IMG/VR virus record: IMGVR_UViG_3300037502_000417
Location: 1-36,455 of that record
Length of the DNA: 36,455 nt
DNA from: a virus
Reading direction: 5' to 3' (one strand)
In this document: piece after piece, positions 16,311 to 32,002 of the stretch
How positions within the stretch are numbered: position 1 is the stretch's first letter
Layout: each line of letters opens with the position of its first letter
The notes under the pieces: generated by a model
Seen by the model: the letters and a program-made list of their open reading frames with translations, nothing else
Databases searched by the model: none
What the model was told of the DNA's origin: nothing
Translations under genes and position numbers: made by a program

Positions 16311-16625
16311 ATGACCACTAAAAAACTGTTTGACGCAAATCCTGAACTTGGCATTACTCGTTTCTGGCACTACGACGAAGAAAAAGACGAGGCCACCATC
16401 CAGACACAGCAGGATGTGTCTGCGATCATTGAAGAGAATAAGCAAGAATTTAATCAGGTGGATGAGCGCGCACGCTGGGGCGAATGGACTCGCGTGGCGT
16501 CGATTCCGCTGAGTCTTTATTACCAGCTCAAGGCGGAGGGCAAGCTCGAGGACGAGGCGTACATGAAGCGCTGGCTCAACGACCCTGAAAATCGTCATTT
16601 CCGCGTGCGTCCGGGTCAGGTATGA
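16311..16625 (+). CDS. Conserved phage protein next to capsid, 104 aa
   Basis: 104 residues of a pattern widespread in phages with SU10-like capsids: a FHYDEE-like start (here RFWHYDEEKDEATIQTQQDV), an ARWGEW block with VASIPLSLYYQL, and a C-terminal RWLNDPENRHFRVRPGQV. The biochemical role is unknown; a head-completion or capsid-associated role is suggested by position only. The gene starts immediately after the capsid terminator and overlaps the next gene by 4 bp. Confidence 0.82.
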   Translation: MTTKKLFDANPELGITRFWHYDEEKDEATIQTQQDVSAIIEENKQEFNQVDERARWGEWTRVASIPLSLYYQLKAEGKLEDEAYMKRWLNDPENRHFRVRPGQV

Positions 16626-17281
16626 AGACGAACTACATCGCTGTCTGCACCCCTGCGCGGGACATGGTTCATACCATGTTTACCTACGATCTGGTCAATA
16701 TGGTGTGCCATCACACCTTGACGACGAATGACGCGATTTCGCTGAAGATTTCAGAAGGAACGCTGATCGCTAACCAGCGCGCCGAGCTGTCGCTTGACGC
16801 CATGCGCGAGGGCTGCTCGCATCTGCTGTTTGTAGACTCGGATATGCGGTTTCCGCAGGACATGATCTCGCGGTTGCTCAAGCATGACCTAGCCATCGTG
16901 GCGGCTAACTGCGCCCGCCGCCGTATGCCTACCGGCCCGACGGCGCAGATTTATAAAGAGAACGGCGAGCGCGAACTGGTCTGGACGATGCCAGAGAGCA
17001 CAGGCCTGCAGGAGATTGGATCGGTAGGCATGGGTGTAATGCTCATCAAGGCTGAGGTGTTCAAGGCGCTGTCTGAGCCGTGGTACGAGACGCCGTGGCG
17101 CAGCGACAAGCGCGGCTACATTGGCGAGGACGTTTATTTCTGCAACAAGGCTCGCGCTGCTGGCTTTAAAATCTGGATAGATCACGACGTATCGAAAGAG
17201 ATCGGGCACGTCGGCACGTTTGAATACAAGCACGACCATACCTGGGTCATCAAAGACCTGGAGAAGGAAAAGGCGCCCTAA
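16622..17281 (+). CDS. GT-A type glycosyltransferase II
   Basis: 219 residues. LLFVDSDMRFP at about 69-79 carries a textbook DxD motif (D72, D74), preceded by a helix ending in LDAMREGCSH. Further on, GSVGMGVMLIKAEVF and GYIGEDVYFCNKARAAGF, then HVG, fit the acceptor-site part of GT-A enzymes, with E-D in place for a general base. It is clearly distinct from the glycosyltransferase at 10871 but sits in the same head operon, on the other side of portal, scaffold and capsid. It may glycosylate capsid or tail protein. Substrate unknown. Confidence 0.82.
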   Translation: MKTNYIAVCTPARDMVHTMFTYDLVNMVCHHTLTTNDAISLKISEGTLIANQRAELSLDAMREGCSHLLFVDSDMRFPQDMISRLLKHDLAIVAANCARRRMPTGPTAQIYKENGERELVWTMPESTGLQEIGSVGMGVMLIKAEVFKALSEPWYETPWRSDKRGYIGEDVYFCNKARAAGFKIWIDHDVSKEIGHVGTFEYKHDHTWVIKDLEKEKAP

Positions 17282-17905
17282 ATGGCACTATCAACGTACA
17301 CGGAACTCAAGGCGTCGGTGGCAGACTGGCTTAACCGCACCGATCTGACGAGCGTTATCCCGGACTTCATTGCTCTGGCGGAGGCGCAGATTGAGCGCAC
17401 CCTACGCACTCGTCAAATGATCGTGCGCGCCACCGCGTCGATTGATACCGAGTACAGCGCAGTGCCTGGCGATTTCCTTGAGACCAAGTCGATTAAGCTG
17501 AACACGAATCCCGTGACGGCGCTCACGTTCGAGTCTGTTGACGCGCTTGATGACCTTAAATCGACAACGTACATCTCTGCGGGTAAACCCCAGTATTTCA
17601 GCATAGTCGGCGGTCAGATTCGTGTTTTGCCGGTGCCGGATAACAGCTATACAGCGGAGCTGATTTACTACGCGAAACTGTCTAAGCTGTCGTCAACGAA
17701 TGCGACGAATTGGCTTTTGACGCAAGCGCCCGATGTATATCTGTATGGCTCGCTGATGCAAGCCGCACCTTACTTGAAGGATGATGCTCGGGTATCGGTT
17801 TGGGCTGCGATTTACACCCGCGGCCTCGAGGAGCTGCAGGTCGCTGACGATCGTGGCGCAACGTCTGGCGGCTCCATAATGATGCGGGCCAGGACTTTCG
17901 GATAA
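17282..17905 (+). CDS. Head-tail adaptor protein
   Basis: 207 residues matching phage adaptor proteins of the P22 gp4/SU10 adaptor kind. The start YTELKASVADWLNRTDLTSVIPDFI followed by ALAEAQIERTLRTRQM is the usual N-terminal helix bundle; the middle has YSAVPGDFLETKSIKLN; the end is helical. It would bind below the portal to connect the tail. The gene begins directly after the upstream stop codon. Gene order capsid-adaptor-fibre agrees with this role. Confidence 0.85.
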   Translation: MALSTYTELKASVADWLNRTDLTSVIPDFIALAEAQIERTLRTRQMIVRATASIDTEYSAVPGDFLETKSIKLNTNPVTALTFESVDALDDLKSTTYISAGKPQYFSIVGGQIRVLPVPDNSYTAELIYYAKLSKLSSTNATNWLLTQAPDVYLYGSLMQAAPYLKDDARVSVWAAIYTRGLEELQVADDRGATSGGSIMMRARTFG

Positions 17906-17918
17906 AGGAGCTTTTTAA

Positions 17919-18317
17919 ATGTCATCGTTCACCGACTACACCGAGAACCTGGTTCTTAACTGGCTTCTCACCACCAACAGCGCCACCCGGCCCACCGCCT
18001 GGTATGTGGGCCTATTCACGGCTGCCCCGTCCGACACGGGTGGTGGCACTGAGGTTTCTGGCAACGGCTACGCCCGCGCTGCGACTGGCACTATTACTGT
18101 CTCTGGCACTTCGCCAACAAACGCAACAAACGCAGCGGCCATTGAATTCGCCGCAGCTTCTGGCGGTAACTGGGGCACGATTACGCACGCCGGCATCTTT
18201 GATGCTTCTACCAGCGGCAATTTGCTGGCCTGGGCTGCGCTGTCTACCTCGCGGACCATTAACGACGGCGACGTGCTGCGCATTCCCGCCGGCGATCTGG
18301 ACGTCACCTTGACGTAA
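17919..18317 (+). CDS. Tail-fibre-type virion protein, 132 aa
   Basis: 132 residues rich in Thr, Ser, Ala and Gly, mostly predicted beta strand. The start FTDYTENLVLNWLLTT followed by WYVGLFTAAPSD, and a C-terminal part with WAALSTSRTINDGD, is a pattern seen in many phage 'tail fibre' small proteins. It probably forms part of the virion surface or tail. A good ribosome binding site (AAGGAG) lies upstream. No enzymatic motif. Confidence 0.75.
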   Translation: MSSFTDYTENLVLNWLLTTNSATRPTAWYVGLFTAAPSDTGGGTEVSGNGYARAATGTITVSGTSPTNATNAAAIEFAAASGGNWGTITHAGIFDASTSGNLLAWAALSTSRTINDGDVLRIPAGDLDVTLT

Positions 18318-18324
18318 TCCGCAA

Positions 18325-19086
18325 ATGGCTGCCTACGGCTCCGGGCCATACGGCCAGGGTAATTACTCCTACGGGGTAACGCTTGCAGCCGTAGCGGTCG
18401 CCGCATCCTCGAGCGCATCGGTTTCGGCCGTGCGCTATGCGTTTGGCGCGTTTACCGCTGCCGGCGCGTCGTCAGTTAGCGCATCTGCTAACGTCATCAA
18501 GAGCGCTTCTTTTAGCGTTTCGGCGTCTTCCTCTGTTTCTGCGGCAGCGCAGCGCGTTGCTATTGCATCCAGCGCTATAGCCGCTGAGTCGGCTGTTAGC
18601 GTCTCTGCGCTGCGCTACGCGATTGGCGCCTTTACGGCGGCCAGCTCGTCCGCCGCCAGCATTTCCGCGGTGCGGTACGCCATTGGGGCATTTGCCGCCA
18701 ATGACGAAAGCGCCATGTCGGTCTCGGCGATCCGGGTGCCGCTGGTTAGTATCCTGATAGACGCCTGGGCTGACATGACTGTCAGCACCAGCGTTATCGT
18801 GAATCAGGCGCTAACGATTAGCGCCGAATCGGCGGCTTCCATTAATGGCATTCGTATCCAGCCTGGCGCGATATTGAGCGCATCTGAGTCTGGCATGACG
18901 CTCAATGCTGTTCTAAAATGGGTCGCAGAATCTGACACGGCAGAAACATGGACGAGCATCCCGGACCAAGGCGAGGTCTGGACTGCGGTTTCTGACGCCT
19001 CGACAAGCTGGGCCGCGCAAAGCGACACCCCTGAGACTTGGACGCCTATCCCTGAGAATTCCGAAACTTGGCAGCTTGCTGCATGA
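18325..19086 (+). CDS. Repeat-built virion fibre protein: 20-aa repeats then Trp decapeptides
   Basis: 253 residues made almost wholly of repeats. From about residue 31 to 200 the sequence repeats every 20 residues without insertions; units at 31, 91, 111, 131 and 171 share a (V/I)SAxRYAxGAF-like core. The next 50 residues switch to a 10-residue repeat with Trp at exactly 199, 209, 219, 229, 239 and 249 (TWTxIP / VWTAVSD alternation). The N-terminus is Gly/Tyr-rich. No signal peptide or membrane segment. The strict periods suggest a beta-solenoid shaft followed by a Trp-stacked tip. Placed between fibre genes, it is likely a tail appendage, but its role is inference. Confidence 0.78.
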   Translation: MAAYGSGPYGQGNYSYGVTLAAVAVAASSSASVSAVRYAFGAFTAAGASSVSASANVIKSASFSVSASSSVSAAAQRVAIASSAIAAESAVSVSALRYAIGAFTAASSSAASISAVRYAIGAFAANDESAMSVSAIRVPLVSILIDAWADMTVSTSVIVNQALTISAESAASINGIRIQPGAILSASESGMTLNAVLKWVAESDTAETWTSIPDQGEVWTAVSDASTSWAAQSDTPETWTPIPENSETWQLAA

Positions 19087-19094
19087 GGTAATAA

Positions 19095-20549
19095 ATGGCT
19101 GATACGACCACCACTAACTTGCTGCTGACCAAGCCCGAGGTCGGTGCATCAACTGACACCTGGGGCACCAAGATCAACACGGATCTGGACAGCATTGATG
19201 CTGTCTTTGCCGCGGCGGGTAACGGCACCTCTGTGGGCCTAAACGTAGGTTCTGGCAAGACGTTGAGCGTGGCCGGCACGTTGACCGCAACTGGCACGAT
19301 ATCTCTCACATCTCCTAAGATCATTACGCAAATTAGCGACACGAACGGCAATGAACTGCTTAAGCTTACAGCGACTGCATCTGCCGTCAACGAGCTAACA
19401 CTTGCAAATGCTGCAACAGGTGGCGCACCTGAACTATCCGCGACTGGCGGCGATACAAATATTGACGTTAAGTTAACTCCGAAGGGAACTGGATCGCTAC
19501 TGATTTCTTCTATTAAAGACGCCTCTGGCGGCAGCAACGCCGTGTTCAGTGGTGTCGCCTCGCCGCCTAACTCGATGGGGTTCCGCAACCGCATCATCAA
19601 CGGCGATATGCGGATCGACCAGCGCAATGCTGGGGCGAGTGTGACGCCTGCAAACGGGGCATATACGCTGGATCGCTGGGCCGCATTCACCAATGGCGCT
19701 GGTGTTTACACGGTGCAGCAGTCTTCAACCGCACCTGCTGGATTCACAAACAGTTTGCTTTGCACTGTGACGACGATTGATTCGTCTGTTACTGGAACAG
19801 ATTACTACATGCTCCAGCATAAGGTGGAGGGTTTTAACTCCTCTGATCTCGCTTGGGGCAGCGCTAGTGCGGCTTCTGTAACGCTGTCATTTTGGGTTCG
19901 CTCCTCCATTACAGGCACCTATTCGGTAAAGCTGGGAAACAGCGCCTCTGATCGTTTTTATGTCGCCACTTACACGATCAGTGCTGCTAATACTTGGGAG
20001 CAGAAAACCATCACGCTGTCTGGCGATACGTCCGGCACTTGGGTGACCAATAACGGCACAGGCATTGAAATTCGGTTTGGGTTGGCAATTGGGAGTTCGT
20101 TCACCACCTCTACGATTGGATCGTGGGCTGCGGGTAACAGCTTTGGGGCCACTACTGCGTCCAACAACTGGATCGGCACCAACGGAGCCACCTTCTACAT
20201 CACCGGCGTCCAGCTTGAAGCAGGCACTGTGGCCTCGCCGTTTGAGCGCCGCGACTACGGGCGCGAGTTGATGATGTGCTACCGCTACTATGAAAAATCC
20301 GCAGAATTTTCCGAACAGTATCGGCTAACAAAGACAAGGGAGTCTGATCGTAACCGGGACATTGTGATTCATTACAAGGCGGATAAACGAGCCACGCCAA
20401 CCATTACGTTGGCTGGCGCGAATGGCGATGGTGGCGGAGTTCCTGCCACGCAAACAATTGGGTCTTGGGCCGTTCGATTAAATTGTCTTTCAACCGCTGA
20501 CACGCAAACCCCTTGGGTGAACGGCTATGCGGCAGCGGCGGAGCTTTAA
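19095..20549 (+). CDS. Tail fibre / receptor-binding protein with carbohydrate-binding-like domain
   Basis: 484 residues. The N-terminus, with [20 protein letters not shown] then [13 protein letters not shown], is the common virion-attachment start of phage fibres. A Thr/Ser/Gly-rich shaft (about 40-165) follows. A C-terminal half with [14 protein letters not shown] and, later, [20 protein letters not shown] then [15 protein letters not shown] is the hallmark of carbohydrate-binding-module-like fibre domains in many phages. It should bind the host surface glycan. The distal end (about 410-484) is the most likely specificity tip. It is followed by a small tail-fibre accessory-like gene. Confidence 0.87.
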
Positions 20550-20551
20550 CC

Positions 20552-20722
20552 ATGTACCAACAACTCCCAAACGACCTTCGCGGAAACCCCGCACAGTGCG
20601 TCAAGCGCCTCGCAGACAACGCCTTCATCCCCTTCGATCCCGCCAACACCGACTATCAGCAGTATCTGAAGTGGCTGGAAGAAGGCAACACGCCGCTGCC
20701 TGCGGATGCGCCGACGGAGTAA
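20552..20722 (+). CDS. Small protein downstream of tail fibre, 56 aa
   Basis: 56 residues with FIPFDPANTDYQQYLKWLEE then GNTPLPAD, a short pattern (an XkdW-like 'P.DPANxDYQxYLxWLxxGN.P' box) that follows fibre genes in many phages and prophages. It may be a fibre chaperone or accessory protein. The ATG at 20552, 3 bp after the fibre stop, is chosen over an upstream in-frame start inside the fibre gene. Function unproven. Confidence 0.8.
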   Translation: MYQQLPNDLRGNPAQCVKRLADNAFIPFDPANTDYQQYLKWLEEGNTPLPADAPTE

Positions 20723-20727
20723 AAAAG

Positions 20728-20931
20728 ATGAGCGTTGAGATCACCAAAGCAGCAACCACAGCGCAGTACGGAGGCAGCGGCGCTGCTGTCTATTTCGGGC
20801 TGACCGCGAATGAAATCGCTGCTTTCGGTGGTCTGATCATCGCCATCATTGGTTTACTGGTAAACATCTGGTACAAGCACCAGCACCTGAAGATCGCCAA
20901 GGAAAAGGCGAAGTCAGAAAACGAGGAGTAG
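20728..20931 (+). CDS. Holin, HP1-like single-TM family
   Basis: 67 residues: a soluble N-terminus, one hydrophobic helix at about 28-47 (AAFGGLIIAIIGLLVNIWY), then a Lys/Glu-rich tail with YKHQHLKIAKEKAK. This matches HP1-like class holins, which form the membrane lesion that releases endolysin. AAAAAAG just before the ATG gives a weak ribosome binding site. It opens the lysis block that ends with the GH108 endolysin at 21925. Confidence 0.83.
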   Translation: MSVEITKAATTAQYGGSGAAVYFGLTANEIAAFGGLIIAIIGLLVNIWYKHQHLKIAKEKAKSENEE

Positions 20932-21490: not shown

Positions 21491-21499
21491 AGGATGACT

Positions 21500-21928
21500 A
21501 TGTTTCCTATCGCAGCGCTCCTAGATGTCGGCGGCAAGCTGATCGACAAGCTGATCCCGGACCCCGAGGCGAAGGCTAAGGCCAACCTTGAGCTAGCCAA
21601 GATGGCCCAGGATGGCGAACTAGCCAAGATGGCTAACGACACCGAGGTCTACAAGACTGAGCAGGAAAACGTTACCGAGCGCTGGCGCAGCGACATGGGC
21701 AGCGATTCGTGGCTGTCTAAAAACATCAGGCCGCTGGCGCTGATCGCCATCTTCGTGGCGTATTTCCTTTTCACCGCGATGAGCGCCTTCGGCTACAACG
21801 CGCAGGAATCCTATGTCCAGTTGCTCGGTCAATGGGGGCAAATCATTTTCCTCGCTTACTTTGGTGGCCGCACTGTTGAGAAGCTGGCTGACATGAAGTA
21901 CACCAAAGAGGACAAGGCTGGCAAATGA
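21500..21928 (+). CDS. GTA-type holin (holin of 3 TMs family)
   Basis: 142 residues resembling the GTA_holin_3TM family. The N-terminal part has LLDVGGKLIDKLIPDPEAKAK; an amphipathic charged segment follows; then RPLALIAIFVAYFLFTAMSAF forms a membrane helix, and a second hydrophobic segment with IIFLAYFGGRTVEKL follows. Two plausible starts are 21494 and 21500; 21500 is preferred because AAAGG lies 6 bases upstream, whereas the same element touches 21494. It overlaps the endolysin start by 4 bp, typical of holin-endolysin pairs. Confidence 0.83.
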   Translation: MFPIAALLDVGGKLIDKLIPDPEAKAKANLELAKMAQDGELAKMANDTEVYKTEQENVTERWRSDMGSDSWLSKNIRPLALIAIFVAYFLFTAMSAFGYNAQESYVQLLGQWGQIIFLAYFGGRTVEKLADMKYTKEDKAGK

Positions 21929-22437
21929 AAGAGAACTTTGACGCCGCGCTAAAAGCCATCCTGCATCACGAGGGTGGCTTTGTGAACCATCCTCGAGACC
22001 CTGGTGGCATGACTAACCTTGGCGTGACTAAGCGCGTCTGGGAGGAGTGGGTCGGCCATGAGGTGGATGAGAAGGCGATGCGCGCACTGACGCCTGAAGT
22101 TGTCGCGCCTATGTACAAGGCGAAATACTGGGACCGCATTCGCGGCGACGATCTGCCTACTGGTGTGGATTACATTGTTTTCGACGCTGCCATCAACTCC
22201 GGCCCAGGGCGCGCCGCCAAGTGGCTACAGCAGACTGTCGGCGCTGTGCCTGATGGCGCTATCGGTCCTGGCACGATGGGCAAGGTTTCGGCCATGAAGG
22301 CAAGCGACATTGTTGAGAAGTACCAGGCAATGCGCCTAGCGTTCCTGCAAAGTCTGCCGACGTGGGATACGTTTGGCAAGGGATGGGGCCGTCGGGTGGC
22401 AGAAGTCAAAGACGCCGCCATGAAGATGGTCGGATAA
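21925..22437 (+). CDS. Endolysin, GH108 muramidase
   Basis: 170 residues of the glycoside hydrolase 108 family with the expected N-terminal catalytic Glu in HHEGGFVNHPRDPGG (E16), followed by TNLGVTKRVW. The second half, with FDAAINSGPGRAAKWLQQ and VPDGAIGPGTM, matches the C-terminal peptidoglycan-binding 3-like domain. It cleaves the glycan strands of peptidoglycan. No signal peptide, so it depends on a holin. The 4-bp overlap with the 3-TM holin gene supports a lysis pair. Confidence 0.92.
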   Translation: MKENFDAALKAILHHEGGFVNHPRDPGGMTNLGVTKRVWEEWVGHEVDEKAMRALTPEVVAPMYKAKYWDRIRGDDLPTGVDYIVFDAAINSGPGRAAKWLQQTVGAVPDGAIGPGTMGKVSAMKASDIVEKYQAMRLAFLQSLPTWDTFGKGWGRRVAEVKDAAMKMVG

Positions 22438-25175: not shown

Positions 25176-26438
25176 GTGGCAACACGACTACCCTACTATG
25201 TAGGCGGGGACGACATCTACACGCAACTGATGCGGCAATTCGAAAGCGAAGTGCCGTATTACAGCGCTGCGCCCGCTGGCATTGCTGGTGGTTACGATCC
25301 TTCGCTGTATTCGCGTTTGATGCAGCCGATGCCAGTTGCTACTGACTTGACCGGCGACTATTCTGGTCTGCTTGGCGGTGGCGCCTCTTTTGATTCAACG
25401 CCTTCTCCGACTTCAACCGGCGTCGGTCTATCGTTTGGTGGTCTGCTAGGCTCTGGTTTGGGTGCCCCATCTGGTGCGGTTCCTGGAACTGTTAGCACCG
25501 GCATCGGTGGCGTTTCGTTGTCGCCATCAGGTACTGTTACGGCCAATACTGTCAGCGTTCCAGCTTTGTCTGCGCTTGGTTTGGTAACAGGCGTCCCACT
25601 AGGCTTAATTGGAACGATTTCAAACCAATCAGCACAACAAGCAGCCGCAGCACTTTCATCCGCCCTGTCAGACACTGGCGGAGTCAATGCAGATGGAGGA
25701 ACTGCCGCAGCCACCGCTGGCCCAGGCGGCACTGGCGGAGCCGCAGCCGCCGCGGGCGCTGCTGCTGCCGCGGCTGCCGCTGCGGCTGGTATGTCGGATG
25801 CTGCTCAAGGGGCTGCATCTCAGGCCGCTGCAAGCGCTGTAGTGGCTGGTGCAACTGCAGCCGAGGCAGCGGCCGCAGGTGCTTCGGCGGCAGCCGCAAC
25901 GACTACTGGAGAAGTTGGTATCGCCGGTCTTTCCACTGGGTTTAGCGATAGTGGAACTGCTGGAGGTGACGCGACTGGTATTGCCGGAATCGCGACTGGC
26001 TTTTCTGATAGCGGGACGATCGGCGGGAACTCTGATGCAGGCGTCGGCGTCGGCGTTGGTGGCGATGCTGGCGGCCCGGGCGGTTCCTCCAAAATCATTT
26101 GCACCAAGCTGCACGAGCTGGGCAAGATGCCGACCGAAATCTACGAGGCCGATCAGGCTTTTGGCGCGAAGCTGGTTCAAAACGACCCGCAGGCGTATTA
26201 CGGATATGCCTGCTGGGCGCAGCACGTCGTGCGCTGGATGAGCCGCGAAGATCTATTCGGCAAGTTTGTCGTCTTCGCGGCGTATCACATTGCCACGCCC
26301 TGGTCCAAAGCAATGGCGCAAGAGATGGGCGTTGACGTTAAAAGTGGCTGGTTTGGGCGCTTCCTGATGAAGCATGGCCTTAAAGTATGCCGAGCCATCG
26401 GCGAGATGAAACAGGATAGGAGTATGCAAAATGTCTAG
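25176..26438 (+). CDS. Ala/Gly-rich internal virion protein, 420 aa
   Basis: 420 residues. An N-terminal region with Tyr-Gly motifs is followed by a very long Ala/Gly/Ser/Thr low-complexity segment (about 60-300) containing two near-identical blocks around GIAGLSTGFSDSGTAGG and GIAGIATGFSDSGTIGG. A conserved C-terminal domain (about 305-420) has CTKLHELGKMPTEIYEADQ, then FGAKLV and YGYACWAQHVVRWM, which recurs in many phage virion proteins. It is probably carried inside the capsid and ejected. GTG start with AAGGAG at 25163-25168. It overlaps the next gene by 8 bp. Confidence 0.75.
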   Translation: MATRLPYYVGGDDIYTQLMRQFESEVPYYSAAPAGIAGGYDPSLYSRLMQPMPVATDLTGDYSGLLGGGASFDSTPSPTSTGVGLSFGGLLGSGLGAPSGAVPGTVSTGIGGVSLSPSGTVTANTVSVPALSALGLVTGVPLGLIGTISNQSAQQAAAALSSALSDTGGVNADGGTAAATAGPGGTGGAAAAAGAAAAAAAAAAGMSDAAQGAASQAAASAVVAGATAAEAAAAGASAAAATTTGEVGIAGLSTGFSDSGTAGGDATGIAGIATGFSDSGTIGGNSDAGVGVGVGGDAGGPGGSSKIICTKLHELGKMPTEIYEADQAFGAKLVQNDPQAYYGYACWAQHVVRWMSREDLFGKFVVFAAYHIATPWSKAMAQEMGVDVKSGWFGRFLMKHGLKVCRAIGEMKQDRSMQNV

Positions 26439-27183
26439 AAGCAGCGGCGGCACGCAGACCACCAGAACCGAGATCGACCCGGATGTAAAAACCGCGTATC
26501 TGCAGAACCTGCAGCAGGCGCGTAACGTCGCGGCTGCATTGCCAGCTCGCGAGTTCGCTGGCTTCAATCCGCTGTATCAGGCTGGTGAGCAGCAGCTCAC
26601 GAACCTCGGCCTTACGCCCTTCACGGGCGAAGAGATCGCCGCCTTTCAGAATCCTTACGAGCAGATGGTGGTGCAAAACACCCTGCAGGACATTGAGGAC
26701 CAGCGGCGCATGGGGCAAGTGGCCGAAGCGCAGCGCGCCACGGCCGCTCGCGCCTTTGGCGGCTCCCGTCAGGCAGTGCAACAGGCGCTGACTAACCAGG
26801 CCGCGCTGCGCCAGGCGGCGACGGCCGCAGCCAATCTGCGCCAACAGGGTTTCGGCGAAGCGTCGCGGCTTGCACAAACAGCTCGCCAGATTGGCCGTCA
26901 AGGCGCGATGGACGTCATGGGTCTGGGCGGTGCGCGTCAGGCGTTCACGCAGCAGCAACTGGATGCGATGCGCAACCTGGGCCTCGAGCGCCTGGGCATC
27001 TCTCAGGCGGGTCTAAGCTTGAACCTGCCGAATCTGGGTATGACCCAATCAACGCCGCTCTTCCAGAATCGTGCCTCTGGCGCTCTTGGCGGCGCGTTGG
27101 GCGGCGCGATGCTGGGCGGCCAGATTCCAGGTCTTGGAACTGGCACCGGCGCTGCGCTGGGCGCACTGGCTGGTCTGCTGTAA
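26431..27183 (+). CDS. Internal virion / DNA ejection-like protein, 250 aa
   Basis: 250 residues, rich in Ala, Gln, Arg and Gly. The segment AFQNPYEQMVVQNTLQDIED followed by AEAQRATAARAFGGSRQA is common to podovirus ejection-type proteins. The C-terminus is a Gly-rich hydrophobic stretch (about 215-250) with two GALGG-like repeats that could enter a membrane. It likely travels in the virion and helps DNA entry. Neighbouring genes are also internal virion candidates. Detailed role inferred. Confidence 0.75.
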   Translation: MSRSSGGTQTTRTEIDPDVKTAYLQNLQQARNVAAALPAREFAGFNPLYQAGEQQLTNLGLTPFTGEEIAAFQNPYEQMVVQNTLQDIEDQRRMGQVAEAQRATAARAFGGSRQAVQQALTNQAALRQAATAAANLRQQGFGEASRLAQTARQIGRQGAMDVMGLGGARQAFTQQQLDAMRNLGLERLGISQAGLSLNLPNLGMTQSTPLFQNRASGALGGALGGAMLGGQIPGLGTGTGAALGALAGLL

Positions 27184-27192
27184 GGGGGAACT

Positions 27193-28659
27193 ATGGCAAC
27201 GTCTTTCAACCTTGGCGGTCTGCTGGGCACCACCTTCGGCGGTGGCTTGTCGTCGCTGAATGACCTTTTGACGGAAGAGCAACGCGCCGCGATCCAGCAG
27301 CAGGCGGGTCTCGCTGCCGCTGCCGCGTTGCTGCAGGCCGGCGGCCCGTCCACCACGCCCACGAGCCTGGGTCAGGCGCTGGGGTCTGCGTTCACGGCCG
27401 GTCAGGCCGGGCTGCAGCGTGGCACCGAGTCTGCGCTGACGCAGATGCTGACGCGCCAGAAGCTGGAAGAGGCCAAGCGTGCGCAAGATCTTCAAAAGCG
27501 AATTGCCGGCGTCTTTGATGGCACTGCTGCACCTAGTGGAACCATTACGCCTGAGCAAGCGCTCGCCGCTCCCGGTATGGCCGCTGGGCCGACTGTCCAG
27601 CGCGCTGCCCTAATTGGGCAACCGCGCACCGAGGCCGCGGGGCCGAAGATGAGCGCGGCAGAGCAGCGTGCGCAGCAATATCGCCAACTCGCTGACATTT
27701 ACGCGATGAGCGGTAAAGGGGAAGACGCCAAGCGTTACATGGATATCGCCGAGAACTTGGCGCCGACCCGCCAAGAGGTTGCGGGGCAGCCATTTGAGGC
27801 GACGGATGCTGAAGGTAAGCGTGTCATGGTGCAGCAATTTAAAGATGGCACCATCAAGACAATGGCTGGTTTTGGACCTAAGCGCGAGGTGGTGCTGCAA
27901 AACGTCGGCAATAGGATTGTCGCTGTTGATAAGAACAAACTATCTGGCGGCGAATCTCTTGCTATTTCCATGACTGAGGCTGAACAGCGTCGTCTACAGA
28001 TTGAAGAAGCTCAATTGAAGATCGCCCAGCAGCGTCTGGGTCTGAGTCAAGCCGAGTTCAACCGCGGCGCTTATGACCGCGTGGAGACGGCGCAGGGCAT
28101 CATGTATGTACCGAAGACGCCTGGTTTCGCTCCGATTCCCATTACGGATGCCTCTGGCGCCCCGCTGATGGGCACTGGCGGCAAGCCAAGCGAAGGCGAA
28201 TCAAACGCCGCAGGTTTTGCGCAGCGCATGGAGCGCTCGCAGCAGATTCTTTCGCAGTTGCCAACTAGCGCAGTTCCTGGTGTGTTGTCTGCAACGGCTG
28301 GCGCTATCCCGCTGGTTGGCGGTCTTGCACAGCGCGGTGTCCAAAGTGCGCAAGAGCAGCAATTTAAGCAGGCCGCCGATGATTGGATTCGCGCCAAACT
28401 GCGTAAGGAATCTGGCGCTGCAATTGGCAGGGATGAAATGGAAAGTGAATATCGAACCTACTTCCCGCAAGTTGGTGATACGCCTGAAGTTATTTCCCAG
28501 AAGGCTTACGCTCGACAGGTTGCCACCAATGCCATGAAGACGTCTGCAGGCAAGGCTTATAAGCCGTTTGTTTTGTCGGAAGAAGAGGCGGCAGCTCGTG
28601 GAGGTCAGGCAGCGCCAAGCGTCCCGGGTATGCCTGCTGGATTCCGCGTTATCCGTTAA
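27193..28659 (+). CDS. Large internal virion protein, 488 aa
   Basis: 488 residues. The Gly/Ala-rich N-terminus (about 1-60) precedes a long helical region with many Gln and Glu (about 70-300). A conserved-looking C-terminal domain (about 385-465) has FKQAADDWIRAKLRKESGAA, then YRTYFPQVGDTPE, a pattern I know from phage internal proteins. No catalytic motif seen. Placed between two other Ala-rich internal virion genes. RBS GGGGGA lies upstream of the ATG. Confidence 0.75.
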   Translation: MATSFNLGGLLGTTFGGGLSSLNDLLTEEQRAAIQQQAGLAAAAALLQAGGPSTTPTSLGQALGSAFTAGQAGLQRGTESALTQMLTRQKLEEAKRAQDLQKRIAGVFDGTAAPSGTITPEQALAAPGMAAGPTVQRAALIGQPRTEAAGPKMSAAEQRAQQYRQLADIYAMSGKGEDAKRYMDIAENLAPTRQEVAGQPFEATDAEGKRVMVQQFKDGTIKTMAGFGPKREVVLQNVGNRIVAVDKNKLSGGESLAISMTEAEQRRLQIEEAQLKIAQQRLGLSQAEFNRGAYDRVETAQGIMYVPKTPGFAPIPITDASGAPLMGTGGKPSEGESNAAGFAQRMERSQQILSQLPTSAVPGVLSATAGAIPLVGGLAQRGVQSAQEQQFKQAADDWIRAKLRKESGAAIGRDEMESEYRTYFPQVGDTPEVISQKAYARQVATNAMKTSAGKAYKPFVLSEEEAAARGGQAAPSVPGMPAGFRVIR

Positions 28660-28668
28660 GGGCTGAAT

Positions 28669-30651
28669 ATGGCAATCTATAAAGTCCAAGCGCCTGATGG
28701 CAGTGTTATTGAAGTTGAGGGTCCAGAGAACGCGACCGACGCGCAACTTGGGCAAGTCGCGCAGGCTATCTTCGCTGCGCGGCAGCCCGGCGCAGCGCCC
28801 GCTGCTGCCGTGCAGCCAGCCGCCCCGAGCGCCGCGCAGAACGTCCTGCGTCAGCTTGGGCTAACGGCTCGCGCCGCTGGCCCCGTCGCCGCTGGCGCTC
28901 TGGGCGGTGGCGCTCTGGCTGGTCCTCCTGGCGCGCTTGCTGGCGCTCTGGGCGTCGGGCTAGGTCAGATGATCGGCGACCCGCTTGTGAGTTTGTACAA
29001 CCGCGCTACCGGCTCCAATGTGCCGACTCCGACGCAGGCAATGGAGCGCTTGATGACGCAAGCCGGCTTGCCGGAGCCTGCGACCGCGCAAGAGCGCATC
29101 GTGCAGGACGTTGTGCGCGCCGGAACCTCTGCGGCTGGTGCTGCTCGAGGCGCTGGCGTTATCGGAACGAGTCTCGCCCGCGAAGCGGCGCGCACTGGCG
29201 CCGCGCCCGCAATGGGGCCGGGCGCACCGATTGCCGCTGAAGTAATGAACATTCTGGCGCGCTACCCGACTCAGCAAACCGCAGCCGCGAGCCTAGCGGC
29301 TGGAGCTGGCGGCACTCTGCGCGAGCAAGGCGCAAGTCCTAGCGCACAGCTTGGCGGCTCGCTGTTGGCTGGCATGGTGGCGCCTGGTGGTCCGAGGCTG
29401 CCGATTACTGCTCAGGTTGCAGGCGCTCCCGCCAATCTCGTGCGGCCGTTTACTGAGCAAGGCCGTCAAGTCATCGTCGGGAACGTGCTTAACCGCCTTG
29501 CCACGACGCCGGAAGCGACCGCGGCACGTCTGGCGACTGCGGAGCCGCTGGTCCCTGGCGTTCGCCCCACGACCGCGGCAGTCGCCCGCGATCCTGGACT
29601 TGCAGCCGCTGAAGTGCCAATTCGTGCTCTGGACGAAATGGGCGCGTTCCCGTCGCGTCTCTCCGCTAATCAGCAGGCCATCCTCGAGGCTTATCGACGC
29701 CTATCTGGTCGCCCTGGCTCTATCGCACAAGCCGAAGCAAAGCGCGGCGAAATCACCGCCCCGATGCGTGAGCAAGCGTTCGCTAATGTGCAAGTTGACC
29801 CGCAGACGTTCCAGTCTGGTCTCACGTTGACTGTGAATAAAGCGATTGACAGCATCAAGAACAGCCCCGCCGGCGTCCGCCAGGACGTTGAGGTGGCGAT
29901 GAACTGGGCGACTTCGCGTCTGGCAAAAGCGCGTAACCCGATGGAGCTGTACGAAGTCCGTAAGGATCTGGCGGCCGCCATGATGGGTAAATACAACCAG
30001 GACAACCCGAGCCTGCGTTTGGCTAAAGGCCAGCTCTCTGATGTCGTCAAGGCGGTTGATGACGTAATCGAGGCCTCGGCGCCAGGCTTCAAGGCCTACA
30101 TGGAGAAATATTCCAAGATGTCGGCCCCCATTGACCAGATGCGAGTGTTGCAAGACATCGAGCGTCGCGTCACCACGGGCCAGCCGAACCTAATGACTGG
30201 CGAACCTGTCATCGCAGCGGGTTCGCTGCGTCGCCAGCTTGCAACGAGGGCCGAGGAAATCGGAGCGGAGCTGTCGCCGGCCGCGCAGCGCAAGCTGGAT
30301 AACATCGTCGAGGAGATTAATCGCGGCATGGCTGCTACTGCTCCTGGTGTGCGTCCTCCCGGCTCCGACACCTTCCGCAATATGAGCATGGGTAACCTGA
30401 TCGGTCGCGTGTTCTCTGAGTCGCTTGCGACTAACACGACGCTGCGCACCATGACCCGCCCGCTGGACTTCCTGTACAAGCTGCCAGATCAGCAGATTCA
30501 GCAGTTGCTGGTAGAGGCAATGCTCGACCCTCAACTGGCGTCTCAGTTGATGAGCAAGGCTAGCGTGATGAAGGTTGAGCCGTTAGCGCGCTCGTTGCGA
30601 CAAAAAGCCGAGCAGCTTGGATTCGGCGCTGCCATAGGCGCCGCTGAGTAA
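28669..30651 (+). CDS. Large internal virion protein, 660 aa
   Basis: 660 residues. The start IYKVQAPDGSVIEVEGPENA followed by TDAQLGQVAQAIF is a signature found at the N-terminus of many large phage internal or tape-measure-like proteins. Residues about 60-110 are Ala/Gly-rich and may be membrane-seeking. The rest is helical with Arg/Gln-rich stretches. No lytic transglycosylase motif is visible. Likely an ejected internal virion protein, the longest of the set. It ends the virion-structural block. Confidence 0.75.
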   Translation: MAIYKVQAPDGSVIEVEGPENATDAQLGQVAQAIFAARQPGAAPAAAVQPAAPSAAQNVLRQLGLTARAAGPVAAGALGGGALAGPPGALAGALGVGLGQMIGDPLVSLYNRATGSNVPTPTQAMERLMTQAGLPEPATAQERIVQDVVRAGTSAAGAARGAGVIGTSLAREAARTGAAPAMGPGAPIAAEVMNILARYPTQQTAAASLAAGAGGTLREQGASPSAQLGGSLLAGMVAPGGPRLPITAQVAGAPANLVRPFTEQGRQVIVGNVLNRLATTPEATAARLATAEPLVPGVRPTTAAVARDPGLAAAEVPIRALDEMGAFPSRLSANQQAILEAYRRLSGRPGSIAQAEAKRGEITAPMREQAFANVQVDPQTFQSGLTLTVNKAIDSIKNSPAGVRQDVEVAMNWATSRLAKARNPMELYEVRKDLAAAMMGKYNQDNPSLRLAKGQLSDVVKAVDDVIEASAPGFKAYMEKYSKMSAPIDQMRVLQDIERRVTTGQPNLMTGEPVIAAGSLRRQLATRAEEIGAELSPAAQRKLDNIVEEINRGMAATAPGVRPPGSDTFRNMSMGNLIGRVFSESLATNTTLRTMTRPLDFLYKLPDQQIQQLLVEAMLDPQLASQLMSKASVMKVEPLARSLRQKAEQLGFGAAIGAAE

Positions 30652-30663
30652 AGTTTTATCACC

Positions 30664-31044
30664 ATGCCTAACAAACCTAACGCCGAACAAGCCAAGCAAT
30701 TCGACGGGTTTGTTAGGCAATGGCAGCAGGTGCTGAACCTGCAGGACTGGCGCATCGAGCGCGGCGCACGCCCTGCTCGTGGCGCGATGGCCTGCGTTGA
30801 GTGCGACAGCCCTGCTCGCCTGGCGATTTATCGCTTAGGCGACTTCGGCAATGAGCCGATCACTCCTGACTCGCTTTCGCATACAGCACTGCATGAAGTG
30901 CTGCACGTTTTCCTATTTGAATTGATCGCCGTGGCGCAAGACCAGAAGGCGACGCCTGAACAACTGGAGAGCGCCGAGCATCGCGTGATTAACGTGCTCG
31001 AGCGGATACTGGGGGAATGTTATGCCGCAACCGGCGATCAGTGA
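30664..31044 (+). CDS. HExxH metallopeptidase-like protein, 126 aa
   Basis: 126 residues with H77-E78-V79-L80-H81 within HTALHEVLHVFLFE, the zinc-binding HExxH of minimal metallopeptidases. A third zinc ligand may be one of the acidic or His residues in AEHRVINVLER (about 105-117). The N-terminus has WQQVLNLQDWRIE, also typical of this small phage family. Could process a phage or host protein; no substrate is visible. It lies after the structural block and overlaps the next gene by 23 bp. Confidence 0.78.
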   Translation: MPNKPNAEQAKQFDGFVRQWQQVLNLQDWRIERGARPARGAMACVECDSPARLAIYRLGDFGNEPITPDSLSHTALHEVLHVFLFELIAVAQDQKATPEQLESAEHRVINVLERILGECYAATGDQ

Positions 31045-32002
31045 TGAGGAGTTCATGGAACTTTGGCGGCAACACCAGTCCGCTGCCATCGTATCAGACA
31101 TAACGGGCATCACGCGACAAGCAGTATTTCGTCGCCGCCGCCGCATTGAACAGCGCACCGGCAAGCCGCTCAACGCGAAAGACGAAAAGCGCGCCCATAA
31201 CTGGATCGCCACGGCGCATAACCATGCCGCGAGGTATTCGCTTGGCATCGAGAATGGCGTCGTCATCGTGTTCAGTGACGCGCATTTCTGGCCTGGCATC
31301 CGATCTACCGCGTTTAAGGGGCTGCTATGGGCCATCAAGGAGCTGCAGCCCAAGGCGGTGATTAACAACGGCGACGCCTTTGACGGCGCCAGCATCTCGC
31401 GCCACCCGCGGATCGGATGGGATAGCAAGCCTAGCGTGATCGAAGAGCTGACGGCTTGCGATATGTACCTCGGCGAGATCGACGACGAGGCGAAGAAGGC
31501 GCGCAAGAACGTCAAACTAATCTGGGCGCTGGGTAACCATGACGCCCGTTTCGAGAACCGCCTGGCGAACACTGTGCCAGAGTTCATGGCGGTCGGCGGG
31601 TTCAAACTTAAGGACCATTTCCCGGCGTGGATTCCGTGCTGGTCATGCTGGCCTACGGAGAATGTGGTCGTTAAACACCGCATGAAAGGCGGAGTTCACG
31701 CCACGCATAACAATGCGGTAAACAGCGGGAAAAGCATCGTAACGGGGCATCTGCATTCTTTAAAGGTTACTCCATTTTCTGACTACAACGGGGAACGCTT
31801 TGGTGTTGATACTGGAACGCTGGCAGATGTTGGTGGACCTCAGTTTGTAGACTATCTTGAGGACAACCCAGTCTCATGGCGTTCAGGCTTCGCCGTTCTG
31901 ACGTTCCATGAAGGTCGTCTGCTGTGGCCTGAACTCGTTCACGCGATGGCGCCTGATTTAATTCAGTTTCGCGGGCAAGTGATTAACGTGAGCAAGCTGT
32001 GA
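31022..32002 (+). CDS. HTH-calcineurin-like metallophosphoesterase fusion
   Basis: 326 residues. Residues 8-45 form a helix-turn-helix-like segment (DEEFMELWRQHQSAAIVSDI then TGITRQAVFRRRRR). From about 80 a calcineurin-like phosphoesterase follows with D86-x-H88, GD118, G171-N172-H173-D174, and G242-H243-L244-H245, the full metal-ligand set. Similar fusions occur in phages; the substrate (nucleotide, 2',3'-cyclic phosphate, DNA end or RNA) is not known. It overlaps the HExxH gene upstream and the HNH gene downstream (4 bp). Confidence 0.88.
   Translation: MPQPAISDEEFMELWRQHQSAAIVSDITGITRQAVFRRRRRIEQRTGKPLNAKDEKRAHNWIATAHNHAARYSLGIENGVVIVFSDAHFWPGIRSTAFKGLLWAIKELQPKAVINNGDAFDGASISRHPRIGWDSKPSVIEELTACDMYLGEIDDEAKKARKNVKLIWALGNHDARFENRLANTVPEFMAVGGFKLKDHFPAWIPCWSCWPTENVVVKHRMKGGVHATHNNAVNSGKSIVTGHLHSLKVTPFSDYNGERFGVDTGTLADVGGPQFVDYLEDNPVSWRSGFAVLTFHEGRLLWPELVHAMAPDLIQFRGQVINVSKL

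Follow-up and report, generated by a model that had tools for sequence, protein, structure and literature searches.

A conserved group of phage repeat proteins encoded next to the gp80-type fibre gene

Introduction

What is the role of a phage protein whose sequence repeats every 20 residues over most of its length and then every 10 residues towards its C-terminus? This question is raised by a 253-aa protein encoded in the window, the 36,455-nucleotide (36-kb) linear virus record IMGVR_UViG_3300037502_000417 (positions 1–36,455). A first-pass annotation, made from the sequence alone, had interpreted the protein as a fibre protein and had proposed monomer structure prediction and the comparison of repeat number among relatives as checks. 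We find that the protein belongs to a real, conserved and widespread group of unnamed, fibre-associated repeat proteins.

Results

Architecture and periodicity

The gene of the repeat protein occupies positions 18,325–19,086 on the plus strand, as defined by its open reading frame (ORF) and translation, and its product can be divided into three parts, all encoded on the same strand: an aromatic-Gly N-terminus (residues 1–17, MAAYGSGPYGQGNYSYG; 18,325–18,375), nine gap-free 20-residue units (residues 18–197; 18,376–18,915), and a Lys-Trp junction with aromatic decapeptides of the approximate form W-T-x-I-S-D-T-S-E-T (residues 198–253; 18,916–19,083). The lag self-similarity of the protein was compared with that of 2000 shuffles. 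For the whole protein, period 20 gave z = 11.6, the highest value in a shuffle being 4.4, which confirms the gap-free 20-residue period noticed in the first-pass annotation; residues 18–197 on their own gave z = 9.2 at lag 20 and 9.8 at lag 60, and residues 197–253 gave z = 7.0 at lag 10 and 8.8 at lag 30. The repeat region had been estimated at about 170 residues, which is slightly short of the 180 residues found here. Trp is present at residues 199, 209, 219, 229, 239 and 249, exactly as had been listed, and one additional Trp (residue 148) lies off this array.

The repeats had also been called exact, and this holds for their spacing but not for their sequence, as only 54 of 160 residues (34%) in the repeat region are identical at a distance of 20. 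Tandem Repeats Finder reported no DNA-level tandem array at the gene, and this, together with the low identity at lag 20, indicates that the repeats are old and not recent duplications. We also weighed a 60-residue super-period as the basic unit but discarded it, since relatives differ in length by 20 and by 260 residues, neither of which is a multiple of 60. Mean pairwise identity is highest in residues 1–17 (0.84), followed by residues 198–253 (0.74), and amounts to 0.60 and 0.57 in the 20-mers; within the 20-residue units, Ser at position 12 (0.97) and Arg at position 20 (0.87) stand out. The protein is rich in Ser (48 residues), has 6 Arg and 2 Lys, and contains no His or Cys.

Relatives and the length rule

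In IMG/VR, 122 relatives of the repeat protein were found by protein scan and at least 310 by alignment scan; a scan of genome contigs with the repeat protein found none. Within the window's own family, down to 55% identity, the spacing is kept and the alignment is gap-free apart from two events, namely an N-terminal insert of 17 residues, which is carried by a 270-aa form, and the loss of two decapeptides. The remaining lengths in this family are 233, 253, 433, 493 and 513 aa, each a multiple of 20 apart from the others. In two families, the array has its first Trp on residue 19 modulo 20 (199, 379, 439 and 459; 139, 159, 219 and 239). A strict modulo-20 rule for all relatives was rejected, as the first-Trp positions of the MKYG/MRYS/MLYN group (159–181) do not fit it. 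In the comparison of repeat number, relatives vary mostly by whole 20-residue steps, with about 5 to 21 units in those linked to gp80, and the switch from period 20 to period 10 proved to be real and conserved among them. The Trp ladder is present in the window protein, but its residues are not always Trp, since Tyr or Phe takes this place in some relatives.

One relative in a named record, UOF82909.1 (MW202879.1, isolate ctjtQ328, Manatee Spring), is 37% identical in alignment to the window protein and shares its N-terminus, 20-mers and aromatic tail, although the tail is shorter; its gene comes after a gp80 that is 81% identical to that of the window, and it is annotated only as a hypothetical protein. 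Several variant forms were also observed. The 797-aa protein of locus L135 carries a non-repeat insert of approximately 210 residues amid its 20-mers (L135:2906–3541); a LamG-like identity, suspected by eye, received no support from Pfam or PDB, in which the insert had no match, the top Pfam entry being an insignificant polysaccharide-lyase (E = 0.033). In L118, L124, L127, L130, L136 and L151, a fibre-type gene separates gp80 from the repeat protein, which starts with MFG..F..PF instead of YG repeats. In L095 (CRP-4 gp54) and L096 (MEP402 gp61-62), short N-terminal repeats of the GDSRITE type replace the YG motif, and the C-terminal motifs are aromatic.

Gene neighbourhood

The window has the gene order portal, scaffold, major capsid protein, adaptor, gp80-type protein, repeat protein, tail fibre, holins and endolysin. 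On the plus strand, an SU10-type head-to-tail adaptor (17,282–17,905; PF24175, E = 1.1e-39) is followed by a 132-aa gp80-type fibre protein (17,919–18,317), which matches PF23140, named "Podophage GP4 fiber I protein gp80" in Pfam (E = 2.4e-43), and PDB chain 8jou_a (E = 4.5e-12), and which ends 7 nt upstream of the repeat gene. Downstream lies a tail fibre gene on the same strand (19,095–20,549; phrog_4492, E = 1.7e-56), a homologue of which occurs in all 73 close relatives with enough sequence. This position, between a gp80 homologue and a tail-fibre gene, supports the first-pass reading of the repeat protein as a fibre-type structural protein.

Other genes of the window are mentioned here for completeness. 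A glycosyltransferase-like gene (16,622–17,281; Anp1, PF03452, and PHROG glycosyltransferases) lies within the morphogenesis operon, in the interval between capsid and adaptor, and of the 143 gp80 loci whose upstream sequence was long enough, 85 contain a homologue. The Ser-rich repeat protein is one possible substrate of its product; a link between the two was considered and set aside, the glycosyltransferase being missing from many loci. The lysis module includes two different holin-like genes (20,527–20,931 and 21,494–21,928; phrog_20 type and GTA_holin_3TM type) and an endolysin gene (21,925–22,437), and a calcineurin-like metallophosphoesterase gene (31,022–32,002; PF00149) follows unassigned large genes at 25,176–30,651.

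Linkage to gp80

The linkage was assessed in loci L112–L191, which were retrieved by the gp80 profile alone and 72 of which have a complete downstream ORF. The architecture scored after gp80 comprised an aromatic-Gly N-terminus, 20-mers and a W/Y decapeptide tail, and the automatic criterion was a period of 10, 20 or 40 together with Trp pairs 10 residues apart. The gene next to gp80 had the repeat architecture in 59 of the 72 loci (58 automatically and L168 by eye); in the remaining loci, the protein was found one gene further (seven), was classed as 20-mer only (one) or was not found in the available stretch (five). All loci together contain 1,010 other ORFs of 150 aa or more, and nine of these passed the criterion: the seven displaced copies plus two members of the family with a gp80 truncated by a contig edge. 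The 59 linked proteins fall into 47 clusters at 90% identity and 22 at 50%, so that the result does not depend on near-identical contigs. In the reverse direction, gp80 was directly upstream in 85 of the 86 loci retrieved by the repeat protein, the single miss being located at a contig edge. The window protein shows both features of the group, lying downstream of gp80 and combining an aromatic-Gly N-terminus and period 20 with a C-terminal W/Y/F every 10 residues.

Among named records, the same layout after gp80 is seen in phiM5 (phiM5_18), C72C1 and ct2t2046. In CRP-4, MEP402, DSL-LC06, BcepIL02, JC1, Itty13 and PBC5, a repeat protein with other terminal motifs was recognized by eye after gp80, and these proteins are regarded as positional counterparts; in Lietuvens, likewise a counterpart by position, the repeat segment is fused to a DUF2313 protein. 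Other genes occupy this place in Octadecabacter DB2, ctvy9321, ctXG6705, Xanthomonas X1 and Mendera, and some large myophages have gp80 without an adjoining repeat protein.

Database searches and structure prediction

The PF23140 profile matched only the neighbour at 17,919–18,317 and not the repeat protein itself, which had no PHROG match at E ≤ 0.01 (phrog_19041 included), a best Pfam match below the cut-off (E = 0.24) and only chance matches when the protein and its profile were searched against PDB sequences. The proposed β-solenoid narrowing into a Trp ladder was not borne out by AlphaFold2, which gave no confident monomer fold: the model of the window protein (47 sequences) was all-beta with a pLDDT of 42.5 and the aromatic region as coil, and that of the highly regular relative L191 (35 sequences) was all-beta with a pLDDT of 52.2, reaching approximately 60 in the repeats. 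Both models have one tight turn per 20 residues, but it is located after Ser in one and after Arg in the other, and neither topology is therefore trusted. On the basis of these weak models, the 20-residue unit probably consists of two strand-turn halves of approximately 10 residues with two possible turns, and the protein may be one that requires oligomerization or a partner to fold, which could account for the low confidence. Foldseek hits outside the PDB were confined to proteins of uncultured phages and had a very large rmsd.

Discussion

We consider it rather likely that a small podovirus-like phage uses the repeat protein as an elongated, all-beta structural part of its gp80-type tail (neck) fibre. 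This reading is based on the length changes, which go by whole units in the best-sampled families, on the conserved ends and on the near-constant adjacency to a known tail-fibre protein; the large myophages that have gp80 without an adjoining repeat protein and the low confidence of the AlphaFold2 models speak against it. The combination of conserved ends with a middle of variable length suggests that the ends dock and the middle serves as a spacer; each end would bind a fixed partner, one of them gp80 or the collar and the other the following component of the fibre, whose reach would be set by the number of units in between. If the two halves of approximately 10 residues become equivalent in the C-terminal array, this would explain the switch from period 20 to period 10.

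An assembly ruler or chaperone, which would template or count gp80 during fibre assembly and then be left out of the virion, is unlikely in our judgment, although the length changes by whole units speak for it. Distant counterparts give mixed evidence on presence in the virion. In JC1, the positional counterpart gp54 is missing from the virion mass-spectrometry list, in which gp51, gp52, gp53, gp55 and gp56 are present (PMC9144972), and phiM5_18 carries no detected mark, whereas its gp80 neighbour does; this non-detection, combined with the gp80 linkage, favours a ruler. With only 6 Arg and 2 Lys, however, close relatives of the window protein would be poorly detected by trypsin-based methods, so that their absence is weakly informative, and the BcepIL02 counterpart gp56, a member of phrog_19041 ("virion structural protein"), is annotated as virion-associated.

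Sugar binding commonly uses exposed aromatic residues, and the aromatic decapeptides might accordingly form a receptor-binding tip for a host surface glycan; the insert of L135, with its insignificant polysaccharide-lyase match, points in the same direction. We nevertheless regard such a tip as improbable, and the glycan-binding surface suggested in the first-pass annotation is disfavoured if it is taken as host-specific, since the protein lacks His and Cys and its C-terminal array is better conserved than the 20-mers, whereas such tips usually vary. Moreover, the aromatic motif is common to phages of unrelated proteobacterial hosts, and a separate tail-fibre gene comes next.

The interpretation of the repeat protein as a fibre component can be compared with known systems, among the closest being fiber I of the Ralstonia podophage GP4 (gp80 and gp77, PDB 8jou), a homologous gp80 gene lying directly upstream of the window's repeat gene. 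The 8jou entry contains three chains of the adaptor gp77 and ten of gp80, and GP4 fiber I was reportedly described as chain-like by Zheng et al. in 2023. The collar of GP4 shows a 15:12 mismatch, as does that of DEV (PMC10925440), and 15-fold symmetry together with the gp80:gp77 ratio of 10:3 implies five fibres with approximately ten gp80 each, that is, a chain. The Anabaena myophage A-1(L) has five long bead-chain neck fibres, formed by gp82-gp81-gp80, on a 15-fold collar protein (PMC10966104); its beads are separate gp81 trimers, the section consulted mentions no 20-residue repeat protein, and the likeness is one of description. For a bead-chain fibre of this type, the 10:3 ratio in GP4 is suggestive. 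A more specific picture would make the repeat protein a thread strung with gp80 beads, with one unit, or one pair of 10-residue halves, per gp80, so that the unit number would count the beads and fix the length; we hold this picture to be quite doubtful. No PDB chain matches the repeat protein of the window, or credibly its counterparts in the Burkholderia phages BcepIL02 and JC1, which share the order adaptor, gp80, repeat protein with the window. Those counterparts have units of approximately 20–22 residues by eye but carry an Arg-rich tail where the window protein has its Trp decapeptides, and they are likened to the window protein by position and repeat style, not as homologues. PHROG 19041 likewise stands directly after gp80 and has repeating units of similar size, but its profile is not matched by the window protein and it has no Trp array.

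Finally, a monomeric or trimeric β-solenoid spike puncturing the membrane, as raised in the first-pass annotation, would suit the all-beta prediction and the 20-residue regularity but is highly improbable, given that even the very regular L191 yields no confident solenoid, that Foldseek returned no PDB fold at E ≤ 0.001 (a weakly informative search, as the model is weak), that His and Cys are absent, whereas the metal-bound apex of such spikes is of the His-x-His type, that conservation in the C-terminal array is among the highest in the protein, and that the gp80-linked relatives have such different numbers of units.

The first-pass observation is solid, and the mechanism is offered as a well-placed hypothesis. 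The repeat proteins constitute a large unnamed phage protein group with a strict rule of architecture and a tie to a fibre protein whose structure is known, and the group can be used to annotate "hypothetical proteins" adjoining gp80 in many uncultured phages. If fibre reach is set by the number of units, the natural length series of these proteins would make the measurement of fibre length by phages testable.
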